From assembly GCA_037833965.1 (NCBI GenBank), contig AP031351.1:13218501-13282500 (forward strand): a stretch of DNA of 64,000 nucleotides, in the 5' to 3' direction. A program made the translations under genes and the position numbers. The notes under the pieces were generated by a model. That model did no database searches. It had not been told where the DNA came from and saw only the letters and a program-made list of their open reading frames with translations. Below are positions 11,886-57,020 of the stretch, piece after piece; positions within the stretch are counted from its first letter, which is position 1, and each line of letters starts with the position of its first letter. Source of the stretch: Marchantia polymorpha subsp. ruderalis (taxonomy: Eukaryota; Streptophyta; Marchantiopsida; Marchantiales; Marchantiaceae).

Positions 11886-12035
11886 TAATGTCACAAACTA
11901 TCACTTCAAAGTTTTAGTTTAGTACTTCTCTTAGTTTCTCTAGTAAAACCATCGAGATCAACAAAGACATTGTCACAAATGATCATTACAAAGTTTTTGT
12001 TGAGTATTTCCGTTAGTTTCTCTAGTACAAAGTTT
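11886..12035. repeat. Diverged tandem duplication of about 80 bp
   Basis: Two neighbouring segments share the order: TGTCACAAA, a CACTTCAAAGTTTT or CATTACAAAGTTTT block, GAGTA/TAGTA, CTTAGTTTCTCTAGTA. The first lies at about 11888-11946 and the second at about 11971-12030. They are clearly similar but diverged, so the duplication is old. No coding role is seen. Confidence 0.55.
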
Positions 12036-14720: not shown

Positions 14721-17700
14721 ATGCAGATCGTGAGCGGTCATGGGTTCACGCTTTGTGCATCTCGAGTCGTGATCAAGTTTCAGAAATCCTACAGTCGGTT
14801 TCAACACTCGGTTCCGGCATGGACCCGACGACTCTCCAAACAATGTCGCATCGATGAGCAGCAGCATGTGCGAATCACGGATTCCTCTGCTCGACCGAAG
14901 ACTGGACCATGGAATCTGAACGTACGCTCCAAATCCGAACCAGCTCTGGTGGACCTCTCTAGCAACACAGCGGTCACTCCATCGCACGCATTTGTCGATG
15001 GTGTGCTGGGTGTATCACAGCAAAATGGCGATTCGGATTCAAACACTGCAACTTCAGATATGATATTTTTGGGAACAGGAACTAGCGAGGGTGTGCCCCG
15101 AGTCAGCTGCCTCACTCACACTTCCATGCGATGCCCTGTAAGAAAACCCGCTACCCAGACGCTGCTTTTGGATTCGCAAATCGAAAGGGATTCGCATGGA
15201 CTTGCACATTTTAGAGTAAAACCATATTGGCCTGTAGTTTTCTCAGTGTATGCTGCTAGAGGACAAGCAGGGGCCCGAGATGAGCCTCCTGCACCGTGGC
15301 GAAAATTCTGTCACCTTGCGCTGGTCTCTAGGTCGTTGCATAATTACAACTTTCGAGGAGTCAGACAGTTGGGGGGGAAAATTGAGATCCGCAAAATAAA
15401 TTTGAACATGTTGGACTTCTGAGATTGGAAGAGGAGACGCACTTGAAGACGCTTAAGATTGTTAGTCGAGGTGCTCTACCTGAATTTCTCACACAACGTC
15501 GAGAAGATTGCCGAGTTTTGAATCTCTAAGCTGGTGGCTGATTTTCTTCTTGCATAGGTGTGTTGGGGAGCGGCACAGCTTGGGAACAAGAATAGGCGTC
15601 GTAACACTAGTCTTCTGGTGCGTTATCTTGCAGCAGATGGTATAAGGCGAAACATCCTCATAGATGCTGGCAAGTACGACTCTGCAAAGCGCAGCTGGTT
15701 TAGAATCACGTCGTCTCTTGCGTTCATTGCAGGTGTTTGAGTAGTAGATTTATCAGCTGTTGCTTTCCGTCTGTGGGGCATGGGAAAACTATTCGATCAG
15801 TAACATCTTCTATATTGGACGTCACTTCCATTTCACAAATTAGACGCAGATTGATGATCTCATATGATGATTTATTGAATGTGATTTGATTGCATTGGAC
15901 GTTGTAGGTTCTTCTATCACAGTGCACTGCAGTGGTTCCCACATTACGGGTGAGTTTTTTTATTCTAGTAAGGATGGAGGTGTACCAGTCTTACAACAGA
16001 AGAAGAGCGAAATGTGTTCTCCTGTAAGACTCTAGTATATTGTAGTTTTTTTTTTGCAAGATCAAGGCTTCCTTTCCAGCATATAGACGACTGGGCAACA
16101 TTTCATCCTGGAGACCTTGAGTGGGAGTTCTGTCAATATGGCAATGTCAGATTTGATATCTTGTGCGATATATAGACGGACAGGATTTCTGAGTACGATA
16201 TCGCTTTGATTTTGAATTCAGGATACGAAACCTTGATTCGGTTATAATTACACACTCTCATGCTGATGCTGTTGGAGGTACCTTCTCGGTGAATCTCTTG
16301 ATTTAAAGTTCAAGGTTGAGAAGTAGAGTAGGGAAGATTGTCTCAGTGGAATGCTCGTCAGCGTATGAAGAGTTGAAAGGTGTTGATTCGTCGCAGGGTT
16401 GGATGATTTGCGAGACTGGACGAACAATGTCCAAGATTCGATTCCTATCTACGTTGCCCAACGAGACATTGAGGTCATATGCTGCTTCTAAGTTCTCGGC
16501 ATGTACTTTGTTCACCCTCATTGTCCTATTCTCCTTTTTGGGAACTAGTCTTACTGGTAAAAATTAGAGCAGGTTTTTGTTATTCTCTCCCAATGCACGA
16601 AACAGTGAATTTATCTTTGTAGGAGTCCTGTTGATTGCCACGGGAGCGTATGGTGCATTGGAGATCGTTTACCCATACTGACTAGCTAAGATCTTTGTCT
16701 TGAGTAGGTGCTGTCCAAGTCTCACTACTACCTTGTTGATCCGAGTGTCATTACGAAAGGAACTGCCGTCTCAAAGCTTCAGTTTAAGCTGATCACAGAG
16801 GAACCATTTTATGTGCACGGTCTCAAGGTATTTCATGTTTATTATGAGATTGTGTCTGAGAAATGTTCAGTTTCCCGTAATTTTGTCCTTGGTAAACAGA
16901 CAAGACCTGGAGCATGGAAAACAGTTTTGGAAGGTTTTGAAATTTTCTGGTTGAAAGTGGCGTGAGTTGTACTCATCATGTCGGTATTGCAGGTGACTCC
17001 CCTGCCTGTGTGGCATGGGCCAGGTTATAGATCTCTCGGATTCCGAGTGGGAAACGTCTGCTACATAAGGTATGAGCCGATTTTCTTAATAGGGTTTTCA
17101 CATTTTCTTTGGACCATCTGTGCAACTGATGTTGGTGTTCGTATGTTGTAACCATATCTATACACCTGAAGACTACATGCCCTGGCTAAGCAGTGCTAAA
17201 CAAGTAATGTTGAACGAAGAGGGAAGAGGACTAAATGAGAGTGAAGAGGGTTTCTCGCGTTTTAGGATTTCTCCCCGTAAGTGAGCTTTTAGATGTTTGT
17301 AAGGTGACTCCTGGACCGAGGACTCGATCTGCCAAGGACCCCTTACTGACGCTCCAAGGGGTGAATTATTATTATATTTACAAGAGAGCAACAGGTTTCG
17401 GCTTTCAATCTAGGCTAGACCTTACAAGAATGTGTTAGTAGTTCCACCTGTTTAGCGAGGTTGTGGACTATCTTGCACTCTTTATAAAATGTGCTACATG
17501 TGACCAGATTATGGTCAGGCCTTTGTCTTGCTTGTTGAAGCTTTAGGCGTGAAGAAGTCGCTGCCATACGTCGATTGAACATTCTCGCATCTCACTTTCG
17601 GAACTGATCTGATTCAAACACAGTCCTTGTATTCATGGACTAGATCAGTTAGATCGAATGATGTCAGGAAAACTAATTCTAGCAAAAAGTAGAGCTTGGA

Positions 17701-18680
17701 AACATCACGTAGTTATTTCGTGTCGCTCTCCGTCGTGCACGTTAAAGATATGACTATGAAATTTGCACTAATAAACCTGGTGCACCGTGGACAGTGATGT
17801 GAGTGAAATACCCGAGGAAACATATCCTTTACTTGAGAACTGCGAACTTCTTATTCTGGTAAGGCATACGTCAACTCGAACTTTTTGATGATGAAAGACA
17901 TAATTCAATTCAGCTCAGTGCTCGTTACAGTCGCCCAACTAGAATACAGCTTGTTTGATGTATGGTTGATAATGATTTCAGGATGCACTAAGACCTGATC
18001 GATCCAGTGCTACCCATTTTGGATTACCACAAGTAAGTAATTTTCTGTTCTTCTGTTGTTCTTCTATGTATTCAACTTACATCAGGATGCTGTAAGACCA
18101 GATCGATCCACTATCACTCATTTTGGATTACCGCAAGTAAGTACATTATTCTCACCTTGATGGTGTCCATTCTGCCCGTTCACGGAAGTTGGACGTAGAA
18201 ATTTAGGTTCTTCGTCTTTATGTTTGGATGCTGTGCAGTTCTGACTTTTTCACCCTTCAGGCTCTTGACGAAGTTCGGAAAATTCGACCTCAACGAACGC
18301 TCTTCACTGGTAAGTTTCAAAATCTAGTGATGGAGAACCGTGTGCAAAGTTGAGAATTTCTCGAAAGAGTTTCATCGTCATTGGAGAGGATAGCACGTCT
18401 CAGCTGACTTATTCCGTATTCTTATTTCTCATTACGGAATTTCATTACGGATACTGCACATGTTTTTGTAAGGAAATAGAGGTGGTCATACATTACCATC
18501 AGAGGGAACAGTTGGTTTTCATGGGCTCTCACATGATTGTTACTCTTATGTGCTGGACTAGGGATGATGCACACGATGGACCATGACAAGATCAACGCGA
18601 AACTTGCAGAGATTGGAAAGGAGGAGGGCTTGGATATGCAGCTGAGTTTTGACGGGATGAGAATACCAGTAACAATTTGA
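14721..18680 (+). CDS. Metallo-beta-lactamase-fold hydrolase with organelle-type N terminus
   Basis: Exons: 14721-15137, 15558-15673, 15908-15949, 16222-16277, 16397-16473, 16708-16827, 16993-17069, 17795-17858, 17982-18032 and/or 18086-18136, 18261-18309, 18562-18680. All phases agree and give 395 residues with one copy of the duplicated exon. It resembles the conserved plant metallo-hydrolase family (Arabidopsis At1g30300 type) of unknown substrate. DMIFLGTGTSEGVP opens the domain. The metal motif is THSHADA (H203, H205, D207) followed by GLDDLRDW. Later landmarks are LPVWHG, GNVCYI, DALRPDRSSATHFGLP and GMMHTMDH. The first 110 residues are basic and serine-rich, suggesting an organelle transit peptide, which is inferred only. 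The duplicated exon is listed separately. Confidence 0.9.
17982..18032 (+). other. Duplicated exon, copy A (51 nt)
   Basis: This 17-codon exon of the hydrolase gene encodes DALRPDRSSATHFGLPQ. It has an AG acceptor, a GTAAGTAA donor and phase 0 at both ends. It matches the family consensus more closely than copy B, so it is probably the ancestral form. Confidence 0.9.
18086..18136 (+). other. Duplicated exon, copy B (51 nt)
   Basis: Only 53 bases after copy A lies a second exon of identical length, phase and splice signals. It encodes DAVRPDRSTITHFGLPQ. It differs from copy A at nine of 51 bases but at only three residues (L to V, S to T, A to I). Either copy, or both, keeps the frame, so mutually exclusive splicing or joint inclusion (412 residues) are both possible. 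The very short intron between the copies would make joint inclusion difficult. Confidence 0.88.
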
Positions 18681-20516
18681 GTCCACAAATGAGAAACAAC
18701 CTTTGCGGTTCATACATCATCAAGTTCACACTTTTTCCTTCCCTCGGTAAAAAACGGAGTGGAAGCACTCAGGCTTCGTCATTCTTGAAGCATCGGATTT
18801 TCTCCATGACATCGTCCTTTTCATACACTCCAGCATCAATTGTGCTCGTGCTACTCACGAACACAGCCAAGTTTAAACCCGCAAGGTGCGAAAGCACTCA
18901 TTCACTGTCCATATGCATTCTGGACCCGTGAAGGAAGTGCCGACGGTGTACGGATCGATCTTTTTATAATAAATGGACCACTGTCATTTACTGTTATTTA
19001 TACGTTCGGAGTTGACCAATTATACACGTGATTATCCATTGCGTGATTATTCATCGGTCACAGAAAAATCATACATTTTATTTAAGAGAACCATGTACAT
19101 TAATTTTGCTACCATGAACTTTGTGAAACAAGAACAACATCAACAAGCTGCGAGATTGATATAACTATCGAAATAGACGTTTTGTGTTGGGTTTAGTGTT
19201 GGCTTGAAATTGCATGCAAAGAAAAAGATGCAAGATGATCACTACGGATGCTTCAATAGCATTTTTCAGATATTACTTTGTCGTCAAGTGAAAAAAGTGT
19301 GGAAATGTCATGTCATAGCCCATGGCTCTTAGCTAGCCTTTAAGGGTAAAGAACTCTTCAGGTAACTTTTGGAATCTCACATCGAATCCAGATCACTCTT
19401 AAGGGGTAGGCACAAACAAGCGCAAACGAACATTGCTCAAACCTAATGGCTTTCCCTAGACGATATGTTAGGGATAGTGATGCCCGAAAAGAAAGTACGG
19501 TGCCGTCTTTCACATATCCGAACTTAATCTGATATTTTCTATACATTAGAGATAGACGTGTTCATGCTTTGGTTAGAAATTGAGACTTAACATCTAACAT
19601 TAACACAACACATCCAAGGTGAGTGAACAGTGTAGCAGGTAAAGGCGGATGGAAGTATACCATCCGAGATACCTAGAGTTGGGTTCAAAGTCATCACAAT
19701 GTAAAATATGTTCTACGAGTAAATTCTATGCAAAATGAATTTTGAAATGTCTAAATTGAATGCATAATCAACAAGATAATATGATTAAACTATCACACAT
19801 GATAAGTGATTAATACTATAAACAGCGGTAGCTATTGTCAATCTTCAAAACATAAATAAAAATTGTTCAAAATAACCTGAATTTGTAACGGATATCTTTA
19901 AGCTTCTATGCCACTAGTTTCCAATATGTGTTCTGCATACAGTATTTGAATCATCTGAACCAAATATATAAACAACAATGCAAAATAATAAACTATCACA
20001 GGTCATAAATGATTGATTTTATAAATAGCATCAACTAGTGTCAATTTTTAAAATATGGATAAAAATTGTCGAAATGACCTAGATTTGTATCCAATATCTT
20101 TCAGCTCCTATGTCACTAACTTCCGTAAATACTGCGTGACATCACTTCGTATTTTCGGAGTCAGAACTTAACTTAGATAGTGTCTACAACGACAACACGT
20201 TCTCGCAGGATATCGTGTCTTGATTATTTATTACGACTACTTAGGCACTTTCAGTTCGTAAAAGTTAATGATTGAAAGGACAAGGGCATCATGAACAGAT
20301 GGGTAAGAAAAACATCACAAAAGTCAAGTTAAACCTTCGTAAAAAAAGTTTTGACACATTTGAGCTATCATTTACATAAGGACACGTCCAGTATAATAAC
20401 AATTGATGATAATATACAGTTTCATATGAACAAATATCTCAAGGCTGCGACATTTGACGCGCATCCTTGAGTGAAAGAATGTGGAACACAGTACACTGAA
20501 ATGTACAAAGACTGTC
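18681..20516. other. Convergent 3' flanks with no gene
   Basis: The hydrolase gene ends on the left and the dioxygenase gene ends on the right, so 3' untranslated regions should lie at both edges. The middle is AT-rich and holds a diverged tandem duplication of about 150 bp. I see no coding gene. Confidence 0.55.
19775..20124. repeat. Diverged direct repeat, two copies of about 145 bp
   Basis: The segments 19778-19922 and 19985-20124 share a long alignable order. Both have AAACTATCACA, TAA-TGATT, TATAAA-AGC, TAAAAATTGT, AACCTGAATTTGTA or GACCTAGATTTGTA, and a CTCCTATG or CTTCTATG-CACTA-TTTCC end. The offset is about 202 bp. Divergence looks like roughly a fifth of positions, so this is an old local duplication or two copies of a short non-autonomous element. 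Confidence 0.6.
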
Positions 20517-49660: not shown

Positions 49661-52600
49661 GATAACAAAAAGGAGGATAAGGCCCCATGGGGCAACCAAG
49701 ATATTCCTTTTTCTCCACGATCTCTGTATCTTCCTGCTACTGCTGCAGTTCTCGGATAGTTCGTAATGACTTCAAAGTGATAACAACTCCATCGGCTGCT
49801 GCCACGGGATACATTGAAAGTGTTATCTGTTCCCCAGAGCTGCCATGCCAGCATCTTGAAATTGGTAACTGCTCTCACTCTCTCTCTGTGTCTCTGTCGG
49901 CAACTCTGTCCACCTACTTGGAATCAAACAAACTTTGATATTGCTCCTTCTTGTGGCCCCTCATGCCAGCATACACTTCACCTTTTTCTAAGACTTGGAA
50001 GATGTGAAAACTGCTGTCCGCTGCTGCTGAGGTAGCATGCGTTTGTTGTCACATCTGCTTCCTACTTCTTCTGAAACCAAGTGGCGTCAACGTCGAGTAA
50101 GAGCCAAATCTTCTCCCCTCATCCAAATCTTCGCAGCAGTTGACTATGTACCACTAACGCGAACTTGTGTGGAATATCTCCCTGGAGTTTTCCATACTGG
50201 CTTCCCCTATACTCTTGTGTGAGCTAATTCTCATGACCTCTATTTCTAGCTTTCGAGCTTTCTAATCCCAAGTGCGATTGGGTTACCCTGTTCTCTAACA
50301 TTCAAAATATAAATATTTCATTTTTCTTCCGAACGCCATTTTTCTACTTTTGCAGTAGCATTCTTTTCATTCCAAATGTTGTTTAACCGCGTGGGACCAT
50401 CAGGATGCGCTCCTGACCCACTCTGCACCCGACCGAACAACCGACAGTTCATTTTGGCGAATTACTTAACCTTGACAAAAGTCCTAGAAGTAAACAACGC
50501 CTAGTGGCAAAAAGGTTTTGAACGTGAAATCTTGCGGTGCTAGGGGAGTGAGTCAAAGTTTGAGCCAACTCTACTTAAACCACATACGTTTCAGTCATTT
50601 CTTTCAGTTCGTACTTACAATTTCTAGTTATTCTTGTATGCGAGCTATGTTTCAGTGATTTCATCACATTTCGTTTATTTTCTCTAAAATATTTGGAATC
50701 GAAGGTTATTAGCTATATTTACGAAGAGCAGCTACGGCCACGCCTGTAAGATAATCTGCTTCTTCAGAAAATATAAGAATGCTTCTAAGCGACATGACAT
50801 CTGGAGTAGTTGTGTTTTTGAACTGTGCGGTATTATGGGGAAAGAATGGACCGTTTGTTCATGTATTATTTTGTAATTATGTAGATGACGTTAGAGTTCC
50901 TTGCTTCTTTTCTCAAACTTTTTCGATGGGTTTCTTTCGGTCTTTCCTAACGTATAACGATACCCAACATCTAAACCCAAACCCGTTATAATTAATTATG
51001 TAAATTGTGCTTTACATTACAAGTAATCAAAGCTCGTGTTTGCTCGTGCCCATTCTCTATACTGTAATTTAGTTCTGCTAACTGCGACTACATTGCTCCT
51101 TTCTCTATTCGCAAATTCACGTGCTCGGCACATTCATGGCCTTGACGATTATAATAATATATCCGTCTGAATTGTGGTTTCAGACCAAGCTCCGATGCAA
51201 TGGCCAAAGCTTTAGTGCTTCTGGTGAACGAAACAGCTGGGCTGGCAGCCGCTCTTTGTCGGCTCCGGTGACCCCGGGAGGAACGATCGATCGAAGGAAG
51301 CAAGAAATCAGTGAAAATTACACCTGTGACGGCCACCTCCTCGTCGTGAAGTGAACCTTATGACGAACCAGCAGCACAATCATCATCGTGGGGCGAGGTA
51401 CAGAACAAAGCGACTCTTAACCCGTCGGTAGCTGAGCAGAGTATTATTCATGCAACTGCTGCAGAGTCCAGAGTCCAGACCACCCTCCACAGACTCAGAT
51501 AACACGATGCCACAATTTACAGGCTGCCATTAAAGAAACCCAGCAAAAAGAGCGAGTTCCGACGAGATTTCCCGTCATCCTCAGGTTCCATGATCTAGAG
51601 AAGGCATGCCATGGTCCAGAGACTCGAGGGCTGACTCCGACAAACAGCAGCTGAGTTAAAAGACACGAAGCATGACGAGCATGTCAGTCAACTTTCCCGG
51701 CCTCTACTCCATGCTAGACTGGTAGTGTACTATTGTTGCTGTTGTTGCTGTAATTGTATATTGTATGCACTCACTGCTCTATAGTCGTACACTTGTGTAA
51801 GTCGTATGAGCATGGCTACGGTCGTAGTGAGTGAGCTGTCAAAGTCAAGGGGAATAAAGACATTAAAGGCATTTTGTCCCTCCACTCATCATTTCTTCCC
51901 CATTTTCTCTATCCCCTTTTAACTTTGCGGCCTAGATGAACGTTGTCACTTCGTCCTCTCTTGCCATCTATCTGTAAATCTACATATCTCTTTCCCTACG
52001 TGTTAAAATGTAAACGGCCACCTTGTAACTGTTATGGGAGTCAATAGGTGAGATGCATGTTGGTAATCCTGTGAGATCTAGACCCATGAGAAAACTCGCT
52101 TCAGGTGGCCTCATATTGACGCATCCACTCAATCAATGCACAAAGCCAAAGTGATGTGCTCTTTTGTTGGTTGAGGGTGGTCTATTTAATTCACCTGATA
52201 TGTTGCTAGCTAGATTTTAGCTGCTGGAAAATGATAGCAATTGAGTGTAAAGACATGGTCGAAGACTCTGCGCTCCTTACTTCTCCCTTTGGATATAACT
52301 TACTAAATTCTTTTGCCTTTATTACAACTAGTTAATGTTCCAAACGTATCCTATAAGACTTCTGTCATATTCACAACCCTTAAATGTATAGTTACTAAAA
52401 ACGAACGTCCTTTAATTGCAATGCATGCACGGTATGTAAATGTGATCTGTTAAGTATCCTTGAGAAGCTATTTAGCCGTAGTGGCGGCTGTAACTCAGAT
52501 ACCACTGAGAGATGTGCCTCGTTCCGCTATTTGCTGTCAGAAACTTCCAATATACAGATGTTCTTGCATGTGATTTTGGGAGTCCATTGTTAACGAAATA

Positions 52601-52942
52601 AATTAAAAATAACAGATGCAGTATTTATTGAATGAGTTGTCGCTTCCAAATGTTAAGAGTAAATTCTTTAGATGTTTCTAAAATCATGTTAAAACAACTC
52701 TTTTAAACAAGTAATGATTTTCACACAAAAGTTAGCATAGAAAACGTTTAAATTGATTCATCATGTGAATGAAACTAAAAGAAATGAATGAAATACATTT
52801 TAGAAGAAATCTATGAGTAAATGAAAATCATTAAGAGAAAACAAAATAATATGAAACAACCAACATGTTACATATTCAAAGAAAATGATATTCATCTATT
52901 GAGTCAATAAATAAATATGATAAACTATTAAAAAGCTCATTG
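49661..52942. other. No supported gene
   Basis: GC content is moderate to 51.9 kb, then falls. The minus-strand frame 51336-51088 and plus-strand frames near 50037-50222 and 50779-50991 show no recognisable family. From 52 kb on the sequence is AT-rich intergenic DNA. Confidence 0.45.
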
Positions 52943-53018
52943 TAAGAAAATTATCATTTTAAGTAGAGGAGAGTCAATGGCAAAGCACTCTACTCTACTT
53001 AAAATGATACTTTTCTTA
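52943..53018. repeat. Foldback with 32-bp arms and 12-base loop
   Basis: The left arm, 52943-52974, starts TAAGAAAATTATCATTTTAA and ends GAGT. The right arm, 52987-53018, is its reverse complement at 30 of 32 positions. The loop is CAATGGCAAAGC. The size and near perfection fit a very short MITE, or a hairpin able to yield small RNAs. It sits alone in AT-rich intergenic DNA. Confidence 0.85.
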
Positions 53019-53989
53019 AAATGTTCTTATAAATTATCATTTTCTACATGTTTCTCAAAAAAATTCCAAAATGATCAATATAATGTGATTAAATAATTTT
53101 TTGAAGTGTAGGCTATAAGTTTAGAAATCCTGATTCAACTGAATAGCCATTAGTAATTTTAAATTTCAATTTGGATCATGGATTTTTTCTTTTCTCTTAT
53201 TTTGAATGATATTATTTGAGTCTAACATCATCTACTCTTGCAATTTTGTTCTATTATATCAATGATTTATGAATGAAAATTATGAATATTTGATAGTGCT
53301 CTTGGATTTTTTATTTTTTCTAAGTTCTTTTTGCTATTTGAGAAGTGAGATCATATAAGTGCTGCAATTTTCCAAATGGTGTAAAATACATGATGATATG
53401 TTGTGCTTACTTACTTCAAAAATGTTATGGATTACAAGATACAAGCAAATGACTTATAACATTTATATTGTGCACATGCTTACTTAATCACATCTATATT
53501 TTTTATAAAAGAAACTCATTGTTATATATATGTCCATGTGAGCTGTTTGATTACATTTTAATTCATCATTTCACAAAACACATACACATTAGATTGTATC
53601 TCTTGTTGATCCTTGATAATATAGTGATAGATTTATAAAAATGATAAGCCATTTTTTGTTTGACCAAGATTGTCAACAATGCAGGTAAAAAATTTGAAGT
53701 TGTACTTGATACAAAGTGATGATATGTTTTTTGGGTAGGTAGAAGAAATCACTTACACATTCAATCGCAACAGTTTTGAAAAAAGTGTAACGCGGTACGT
53801 TGAACTTGAATCTTCTAGCTAAAAATATTCTTGATAATCCTATGAAGTAGCTTGGTCAATCATTTATGAATTTTCACCTTCAGTTACAAGCAAATGATTG
53901 ATTATAATGGTTTAAATAGAAAGTAATATACCTAAACCTTGAAAAATATTGTCTTTTTGAGAAATAATTCAAATCTATGTCAAAATGCT
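53019..53989. other. AT-rich intergenic sequence
   Basis: No open frame or recognisable element is seen. The part after about 53.6 kb may be the upstream portion of the decayed copia element that becomes recognisable at about 54.0 kb, but too many substitutions have accumulated to say. Confidence 0.4.
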
Positions 53990-54860
53990 TGAGTGAAATT
54001 TTGGTATGGATTGTGAGATGTATTTGTTGATGGATAATAAATTCTCAGAGCTAATGAAATCTTCAAGAAATCAAGTTTTTATCAAAAGTGAAAACAGAAC
54101 CTAAAATACAATTTAGGAGATGAAGAAAACACAATCTTTGACATCAAGTTGATAGCTATAGGTTTTACACAAGACAAAAATTTTGAAGTACAATAAAGCT
54201 TGAATTCCTTGTCACTCTACTATACATTCTTCTCTGATTGGTTGAACATCTATTTTAGAAGTAGTTGCTACCCACCCCATCAACCCTAAAGCATTGCATT
54301 GACCAATCAGATAAGCGTTTATAGTAGAGTGAGTCTAATTAGCCCTAAGTGAGCGATAACTAGCAGCGCCCTAAATAAAAACAAGACAAGAAAAATTCTA
54401 CAATAGTGTGTATGTTTGCAAAAATGCGTAGTTAAGTTCACAACAAAAGTTGACTATGGAATCACAACAGACGCAGCAAAGAAAACTATTCAATTGAATG
54501 AACCTATCTCTGAGATAGAAGTGAAACAAGAGGTTGTCAATCTTCATTGTGATAATGAGAGTGAAGATTGCCAACCTAGTTAGATTGCATTACATCTTTT
54601 TAGAAATCAAGTGATACACATCAAAAAGATACACATCAACATCATATATCACTTTATCAGAGCTGCAATTTTTTATATAAGAATTGAATTAATCAAGATT
54701 GAGCGTAAGTTCAATCCAACTGATGTTTTGTTTGAAAATTTCATAAAACTGTGCTATCTTTTAGATTTTTCATCATTAGCACAAGTGGAATGTACTAGCA
54801 ATTTTTGTTTTCTCTTTAATTTTTGTCTGTTTCATGTTTTCGCTACGACTAAACATTAGT
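53990..54860 (+). mobile_element. Decayed Ty1/copia retrotransposon, RT and RNase H remains
   Basis: Frames on the plus strand, broken by stops, keep the order of a copia polyprotein end. At about 54125-54190 the sequence reads FDIKLIAIGFTQDKNFE, matching the reverse-transcriptase start usually seen as KARLVAKGFxQxxGIDFxE. At 54540-54740 there is NLHCDNES, then FRNQVIHIKKIHINIIYHFIR, IELIKIERKFNPTDVL. This is the RNase H end (CDNxSAxxLAxNPVxHxRxKHIxxxYHFIR and NPADxLTK). Much of the segment between is lost. No flanking LTRs were recognised. It is an old relic. Confidence 0.72.
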
Positions 54861-56717
54861 AAGCTCTAGTCTAAAGAAGTATCTATGTTAATATTATTAT
54901 TAGAAATTTTTGAAAAATAATTACATAAATTATGGAGGTTGAAGTCTCCAAAAAATAAGTTAAAGGAAAAATTTTTAGTATTAACTCAAGTTTTAGTTTA
55001 CCTCTAGTTGCTTAATGCTAGTTAGAGTTAGATTCAGAACTTTACTAATATGTTAGTATTAATGTTACTGCTACATAGAAGTTCAAGTCATAATTTGCCT
55101 TGAACATTATTTAGGTTTCAATAAAACCTTTCGGTTACGTGAAGGTAACCCATCAATGGCAAATCATGTATCTTTGTGTTGATGTAGTGTGTCTGCTTGT
55201 GCTTTTTTGTATTTTGATTTGTTGTATTTTGAGAACTTTTTGATTCTTGGTACATTCCTATGAAACTATGAGGTTATTATCAAAAATATCATAATTTTGG
55301 AAACTCAAAATTTATTTCATTATATTTGTTGAATTTAATTTTATTAAGATTTGAGATCAAAGGTTAAAATTGTAATGCATTATATAGATATAACATGGCA
55401 CACACAAATCTAAGATAGGTGTATGTTGTCAAAAAATTACATGTTCAATCGAATAATTTTGAATTGTTTCAAAGCGTTCTAGTCTCTTAATCTATGTACG
55501 ACGTAATTTCAATTGGTATATTGCAAATATAAATACTCATTTATACAATTACATAAATGTGATATGTGAAATATTATACTAAAATTTTCTTTAGGAATAT
55601 AAAATAGTTTTTACGTTAATCTCCTTGTATTTATGTCATGTTTTACAAAATTTGATGACAGATCCTGGACATATTTTTATTTTCAAAATATGGATTTTTG
55701 AGTCTGTGTAATAGAAATTGGCATTAATATTACATCTTTATAAGCTTTTTTTGAAACAAGAAACAAATTTCATTACAATGGACAGAAAATTACAGCATTT
55801 TTTCGACTTGAAAACTTCAACATCTTCTCTTTCCAATTTATAATCCCAAGTTAGATTTATCCTTAAAAAGTAAGCAATTAATTTGAATGATAGAGCATTT
55901 AGTTCAGATGCATTAAATAAAACTGCACAAACTTGTATTTTATTTTCACTTGTCTGTTCATTGGATATTCTATTAGCAGTCAATCTTGATTGATAATTAC
56001 TTTGAACAGGCTTTATATTAGGTATGCTATCATACTTTTCACAATTAGGATTAGTGCGCTATTATTGTCAGCAATGTTTGTGGATATTGATTCCACCATG
56101 TGTGTTTTGATTTACACTTGCTGTTTCTCCTAGTTTTGACTGGACTTGGTTTAGCAATCTACATCTATCATCCTTCATGTCTGATACTACATTGCATGCA
56201 ACAATTGTGGATATAATTGGTCGATAATTTGTTATCTAGATGCTCGCTTTTGATGAACTCATGATAATCCATTAATGCACAAGAGGATATTCTACCAGAA
56301 TATGAACGGTATGACTTGCAGTCGATTCAAGTAGGACATAACCATGATTACTTGACAAAAGTATTTTTTCAAGTGAAAACTTCATGTTTGCATTATTTGG
56401 TTTGTAAATAACAGTAAATTTGTCTTAAACTTGCAGATTGTGAAAGAATTTCCAATATCTAAATCATGAAAATAGTAATCTCATCAAATTTGCTTCTATG
56501 TCATATTGTACAAACTTATATGCTTTTACTGTCGTTCCAGCTAAATAACTCTTCGTACCATTTGATGCATGCTACCACAATGACTGAATGATTGTTATTT
56601 AATCAATAGAAGTCTTCAGAATCAATCTCTTAATTCTGCTTCAAGATATCTCCAAATAACAACTAATCAACGTGACTTACCATTTGAATGAAAAAGAAAA
56701 TTTGAAACAATATAAAT
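54861..56717. other. AT-rich intergenic sequence
   Basis: No coding gene is seen. The minus-strand frame 55983-55738 has no recognisable family. Some of it could be long terminal repeat of the neighbouring copia relic, but I found no second copy in this window. Confidence 0.45.
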
Positions 56718-57020
56718 ATGCTCTCATTTCTCATGCAAGTCAATACAATTTGTCAGGAGACCCATACCCCATACAAAGAAGAAGTGTAAAAAAAAAGTCA
56801 AAGTAATGCTCCCATTTCTCATGCAAGTAATGTGCCAGGAGACCCATACCCCGTACAAGGAAGAATTGTAAAAAAAAGTCAAAGTAATGCTCCCATTTCT
56901 CCTGCTAGTAATGTGTTCGGAAGATCCAAACCCCATCCAATGAAATTATTCAAGTAAAGCCAAGGTAATGCTCTCATCAGTAGTAATGTGTGCAGCATAT
57001 TCATACCCCATAGAATACAA
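56718..57020. repeat. Tandem repeat, about 3.5 units of 80-88 bp
   Basis: Units begin at 56718, 56806, 56886 and 56968 with ATGCTCTCAT or ATGCTCCCAT. Shared parts are TTCTC-TGC-AGT, AATGTG, a GGAGACCCATACCCC-like block and a run of A followed by GTCAAAGTA. The first two units are the most alike, while the third and the partial fourth have drifted. Stop-free frames run through it on the minus strand and are a by-product of the repeat. Confidence 0.85.

Follow-up and report, generated by a model that had tools for sequence, protein, structure and literature searches.

Organization of the gene

The window, that is, the whole stretch of 64,000 nt of Marchantia polymorpha subsp. ruderalis DNA that was analyzed, contains a gene for an MBL-fold metallo-hydrolase on its forward strand. 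The gene model was built by hand from the reading frame, the splice signals, and a motif characteristic of the plant family. The Arabidopsis locus of this gene family is presumably At1g30300; a literature search with this locus name found no paper. The features of the gene are as follows:

14721–18680, + strand: MBL-fold metallo-hydrolase gene, whole coding region (hand-built model, 12 exons)
14721–15137, + strand: exon 1
15558–15673, + strand: exon 2
15908–15949, + strand: exon 3
16222–16277, + strand: exon 4
16397–16473, + strand: exon 5
16708–16827, + strand: exon 6
16993–17069, + strand: exon 7
17795–17858, + strand: exon 8
17859–17981, + strand: intron 8, upstream of exon 9A (123 nt; TTGAT motifs 12 nt and 23 nt from the acceptor)
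17982–18032, + strand: exon 9A (51 nt, phase 0, DALRPDRSSATHFGLPQ; consensus-like at position 3)
18033–18085, + strand: intron separating exons 9A and 9B (53 nt)
18086–18136, + strand: exon 9B (51 nt, phase 0, DAVRPDRSTITHFGLPQ; L3V, S9T, and A10I relative to 9A)
18137–18260, + strand: intron downstream of exon 9B (124 nt; shares GTAAGTA with the 53 nt intron)
18261–18309, + strand: exon 10
18562–18680, + strand: last exon of the gene

All 11 introns of the model have GT-AG borders. The product comprises 395 amino acids when either 9A or 9B is included, 412 amino acids with both exons, and 378 amino acids with neither, and none of these four combinations contains an internal stop codon. A protein search yielded separate matches to all 12 exons, but this result does not support the model independently, because the query protein was derived from the same model. 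The weakest donor of the gene is that of exon 5 at position 16474 (GAG/GTCATA, score 2.69), which the frame of the model nevertheless uses.

Elsewhere in the window, a diverged direct repeat of 86 nt (77% identity; 19786–19871 and 19989–20074) lies in A + T-rich DNA downstream of the gene. About 4 kb from 52500 to 56500 have a G + C content of 24–33%, compared with mostly 35–52% in the adjoining 500-base steps, and a tandem array of 81–82 nt units (56747–56977) adjoins this stretch.

The protein family and its metal site

The assignment of the product to a metallo-hydrolase family, proposed in an earlier sequence-only reading of this DNA, was borne out by a match to Pfam Lactamase_B_2 (PF12706) with 90.6 bits, well above the curated cut-off of 27 (E = 1.3e-25), which places the protein in the MBL fold. 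It is not assigned to the PhnP family, as the PhnP model TIGR03307 scored 70.9 bits against a cut-off of 272.25; altogether, six NCBIfam models, including that of PhnP, matched the product below their respective cut-offs. Its relatives with solved structures are 6b9v, 3md7, 3py5, and E. coli PhnP (3g1p). PhnP belongs to the same fold family and was matched over residues 115–392 (E = 1e-10), and 6b9v and 3md7 are closer. The first 113 residues, which precede the matched domain, may be a targeting sequence.

Among the matches listed, the nearest proteins are from Dehalococcoidia/SAR202, with 48–54% identity. An alignment query of genome contigs retrieved at least 591 stretches and at least 526 relatives, and the best 80 loci were used; a motif filter retained 71 of these with a usable frame and dropped 9, and these 71 are the bacterial rows referred to below. 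A search of genome contigs with a single protein query, as well as a search of viral contigs, revealed no relative of the gene. A paralogue with 44% identity to the window gene is present on contig 5 (21452626–21453540) as one uninterrupted frame of 388 codons, listed with a TTG start. It contains a single copy of the exon-9 motif, with a histidine at position 9 that is absent there in the window gene.

The window gene has HSHADA and LFTG in place of HxHxDH and LTH. We assume that HxHxDH and the final histidine provide metal ligands in MBL enzymes; on this assumption, the gene lacks the canonical two-metal signature, and it differs from PhnP and related MBL-fold hydrolases in missing both the last histidine of HxHxDH and the LTH histidine. 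Among the 71 bacterial rows from the best 80 loci, the two histidines were found in 67 and 65 rows, respectively, whereby tallies near the HAD motif are somewhat biased, because both the query and the filter relied on this motif. In a quick tree of 73 rows (midpoint root, no bootstrap), the window gene, the contig 5 paralogue, and four Chloroflexota (Dehalococcoidia/SAR202) proteins fell on one side of a branch with an SH-aLRT value of 100. In all six, HxHADA replaces HxHADH, and the place of the LTH histidine is taken by an aspartate or glycine. Therefore, the proteins of this branch probably have an altered second metal site, and this complicates any prediction of the chemistry of the exon-9 loop.

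A genuine tandem duplication of exon 9

The analysis confirmed that the duplicated exon pair is real and as described in the sequence-only reading. Both copies are 51 nt long and in phase 0, they are 53 bases apart, and both are preceded by TCAG and followed by GTAAGTA. They are identical at 42 of 51 bases and 14 of 17 residues, so that nine base changes result in three replacements (9A to 9B: L3V, S9T, A10I). The replacements had been described as conservative throughout; this does not strictly apply to A10I, which involves three base changes in a single codon. With consensus weights that we chose ourselves, the two donors score equally (6.17), and the acceptors score 5.61 (9A) and 4.73 (9B), compared with a range of 1.72–6.05 in the gene. 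Thus, the pair has the hallmarks of tandem-duplicated mutually exclusive exons that have been used for their prediction, namely equal length, phase, splice signals, and homology (PMC3228551): the lengths and phases are equal, the AG/GT flanks are compatible, and the exons are homologous.

A repeat finder reported the pair as a direct repeat of 62 nt with 85% identity and a spacing of 104. When all pairs of 51-mers in the window with offsets of 51–599 were compared, 42 of 51 identities were reached at only four places, so that the likeness of 9A and 9B is more than chance, judged among the window's own 51-mer pairs. Two of the three other places fall into the tandem array at 56747–56977. The remaining one is an A + T-rich direct repeat (11889–12021, spacing 82), known as a sequence alone. 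A search of the whole genome (241,466,482 bases in nine contigs) with 77 bases from 9A retrieved two places only, 9A and 9B.

A duplication generated during assembly was also considered as the source of the pair; it is unlikely, because the copies differ at nine bases and have an intron of their own between them. Intron 8 could not be aligned with the 53 nt intron (P = 0.72), and the latter showed a weak, non-significant similarity to the intron after 9B (P = 0.11). Further decayed copies of exon 9 were sought in the 11 introns of the gene, and none was significant (lowest P = 0.095).

Conservation of the exon-9 loop

The motif had been described as highly conserved and close to the active site, and the family alignment agrees. 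Position 12 of exon 9 is a histidine in all 71 bacterial rows (from the best 80 loci) and in both 9A and 9B; its counterpart in the alignment with E. coli PhnP is residue 200. We take His200 of PhnP to have a catalytic role; a literature search on PhnP with His200 found no paper. Two of the three replacements, S9T and A10I, lie immediately ahead of the T/S-H pair that contains this histidine. In the same 71 rows, position 9 is a histidine in 70, as it is in the paralogue, compared with serine in 9A and threonine in 9B, and position 10 is a proline in 50.

Of the three replaced sites, position 3 alone shows a direction. It is a leucine in 69 of the 71 rows (isoleucine and valine in one each) as well as in the paralogue, and therefore L3V is most simply interpreted as a change that occurred in 9B. 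The loss of this near-invariant leucine would fit relaxed constraint as well as specialization of 9B.

The length of the stretch is also conserved. No insertion was found in any of the 71 bacterial rows from the best 80 loci (28 or 29 residues each) or in the contig 5 paralogue; of the solved relatives, PhnP has two extra residues and the other three have none.

Splice geometry of the 53 nt intron

The intron between the copies, with 53 nt, is much shorter than the other ten introns of the gene, which range from 119 nt to 725 nt. It is also below the minimum of 70–73 nt for functional plant introns (Goodall and Filipowicz 1990, as reported in PMC1626468) and below the cut-off of 73 nt that PMC1626468 itself used for flowering plants. 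Its adenines lie 2–51 nt from the donor of 9A, and those 10–23 nt before the acceptor lie 33, 37, 41, and 42 nt from the donor. The sole YTNAY motif, CTTAC, occurs 46 nt from the donor, which leaves only 6 nt to the acceptor; in nine of the other ten introns, such a motif lies 10–23 nt before the acceptor, and in the tenth it lies at 26 nt. For animal exclusive pairs, a threshold of about 50 nt between donor and branch point has been described, and the distance is 41 nt in rat Tpm1 (PMC7969005). The adenines usable as a branch point here, 33–48 nt from the 9A donor, fall below this value, which is an animal threshold applied to a predicted branch point. Splicing of exon 8 to either copy, or of either copy to exon 10, is free of the short-intron limit.

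The sequence-only reading had suggested that joint inclusion may be sterically blocked. The geometry indeed should hinder splicing of 9A to 9B, but the block itself is less certain, since the branch point is predicted and the threshold is derived from animals.

Two further sources of information on splicing were used. Base pairing among the three introns around 9A and 9B, judged by pairwise duplex energies, was no better than in 200 shuffled sequences (P = 0.89, 0.17, and 0.44), and competing intron pairing of the Dscam docking/selector type was not found in them. Genome-wide, motif pairs were too few to reveal the shortest introns, with 7 at 40–60 nt versus 8 for reversed-pattern controls and 10 at 82–102 nt versus 6 for the controls. 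A general signal of short introns was sought in 264 kb, and neither histograms of the distances of splice-like sites, which were noisy, nor a splice-plus-coding scan, which was noisy and used a flank longer than the 51 nt exons, gave an excess over the controls.

Selection on the two copies

As the sequence-only reading had proposed, dN and dS were compared between the copies. The NG86 method yielded a dN of 0.11 and a dS of 0.54, and two other methods gave dS values of 0.87 and 0.89. Nine random changes resulted in three or fewer replacements in 1.8–4.2% of trials, and thus neutrality of both copies is weakly rejected (0.018–0.042). The further claim that the low number of replacements reveals selection on both copies holds only in part: a constrained 9A paired with a drifting 9B is not rejected and is compatible with the replacement count alone, which has a probability of 0.46 if five of the nine changes were neutral changes in 9B.

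The latter scenario corresponds to the explanation that the gene in practice relies only on 9A, with 9B as a duplicate that is included very rarely or not at all and has so far escaped decay. In addition to the unremarkable replacement count, it is in line with the departure of 9B from the consensus leucine that 9A has retained at position 3, the somewhat lower acceptor score of 9B, and the branch-like motif so close to its acceptor. However, 9B matches 9A in length, frame, the invariant histidine, and all 11 flanking splice-signal bases, and the exons have stayed alike, while the introns around them show no significant alignment. Drift from birth would rarely leave 9B so intact, given an age of the duplication that rests on about five synonymous changes. 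In a model with an indel rate of a tenth of the substitution rate and a transition bias of our own choice, the probability that a 9B neutral from birth keeps all 11 splice bases, acquires no stop codon and no indel, and has at most three replacements is 0.053, 0.0039, and 0.0003 at branch lengths of 0.12, 0.20, and 0.27, respectively. If only AG and GT are required to be kept, the values are 0.119, 0.0148, and 0.0022. The nine observed changes favor the shorter branch lengths. Neutrality of 9B becomes less likely when splice signals, frame, and the absence of indels are thus considered together with the replacement count, and constraint has probably acted on 9B over much of the time since it arose. 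We therefore regard an unused 9B as unlikely, albeit as an explanation that deserves serious attention.

Mutually exclusive use of exons 9A and 9B

Starting from the observed exon pair with its frame, splice signals, intron length, and position in the family alignment, we infer that both copies are used, that their joining is prevented, and that activity differs between the two loops. A tandem duplication of exon 9 would have generated two copies that now form a mutually exclusive pair, and each mRNA would join exon 8 to 9A or 9B, followed by exon 10. The outcome would be two enzymes of 395 amino acids with three residue differences, of which two immediately precede the invariant T/S-H pair. 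Within the 53 nt intron, the 9A donor and the branch point of 9B would be too close to each other to be engaged together, so that 9A would not be joined to 9B and distance would enforce exclusivity. The choice of either copy, not both, would follow from the length of the intron, which is below the plant minimum, and from the 46 nt between donor and motif. Because double inclusion remains in frame, the reading frame could not enforce exclusivity and mRNA decay would not police it.

For 9A and 9B as sterically enforced mutually exclusive exons that exchange an active-site loop, with a usage derived entirely from the genomic DNA, we consider the chances to be about even. The fuller version, in which distance enforces the swap of the histidine-bearing loop across an intron below the plant minimum, with no contribution from RNA structure or mRNA decay, is put forward slightly more tentatively. 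Retention of frame, splice signals, and the invariant histidine by 9B, despite three replacements, is consistent with this interpretation; the unusual proximity of the branch-like motif of 9B to its acceptor counts against it, as does the scope of a single genome. Skipping of both copies would remove the invariant histidine in frame.

Joining of both exons, which would produce a protein of 412 amino acids with a repeated 17-residue loop, would likewise be in frame and could make use of the good splice signals of both copies. We consider it improbable, however, since it requires excision of an intron below the reported plant minimum and since neither the 71 bacterial rows, nor the paralogue, nor three of the four solved relatives contain an insertion at this site, the two extra residues of PhnP being the exception. 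Still less credible is 9B as a regulatory decoy, with retention of the short intron sending the mRNA to decay and lowering the output: retention does lead to a stop codon inside 9B after 20 further codons, but a decoy would have no need for the reading frame or for the 14 of 17 residues that 9B shares with 9A.

Relation to known exon pairs and significance

In animals, tandem exons of the mutually exclusive type are well established, and they are predicted by the criteria given above (PMC3228551, PMC9741552). The arrangement proposed here for 9A and 9B resembles exons 2/3 of alpha-tropomyosin and exons 4a/4b of OGDH in vertebrates, neighboring exons that are kept apart, with the branch point within about 50 nt of the upstream donor (PMC7969005). 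In those genes, however, the branch points have been mapped and are unusually distant from the acceptor, with a long pyrimidine tract downstream of them, whereas the entire intron between 9A and 9B has 53 nt and its branch point is predicted. Human tandem-duplicated exons are similar in that they are homologous, with mostly conservative substitutions and retained ligand-binding residues, but most of them are ancient and expressed (PMC9741552), whereas 9A and 9B are known as genomic sequence.

In plants, mutually exclusive exons represent a minor fraction of events, with 11 of 2,442 peptide-supported events in Arabidopsis (PMC13136898), although large clusters of such exons have been called frequent in plants as well (introduction of PMC6071210). 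In Arabidopsis FLM/MAF1, adjacent alternative internal exons also swap a short segment of a plant protein, but there the differences amount to 19 and 15 residues in the I-domain of a transcription factor (PMC3266260), in contrast to the equal-length homologous exons 9A and 9B, which encode an active-site loop of an enzyme. The sequence-only reading was not aware of such a pair in this family, and a search of open-license full texts found no report of it for this gene among the papers listed; one of the papers that name both Marchantia and mutually exclusive exons concerns another family. Thus, 9A and 9B are a candidate for a known exon type that is unreported for this gene and has a separating intron unusually short for a plant.

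A switch between the copies that tunes enzyme activity, as suggested in the sequence-only reading, is a plausible but tentative idea. If 9A and 9B are indeed mutually exclusive, this pair with its inherent distance constraint, in a liverwort that is haploid and readily edited, would provide a clean plant test of both steric exclusion and the minimum intron length of plants, and it would mean that a plant tunes the catalytic loop of an enzyme by splicing.
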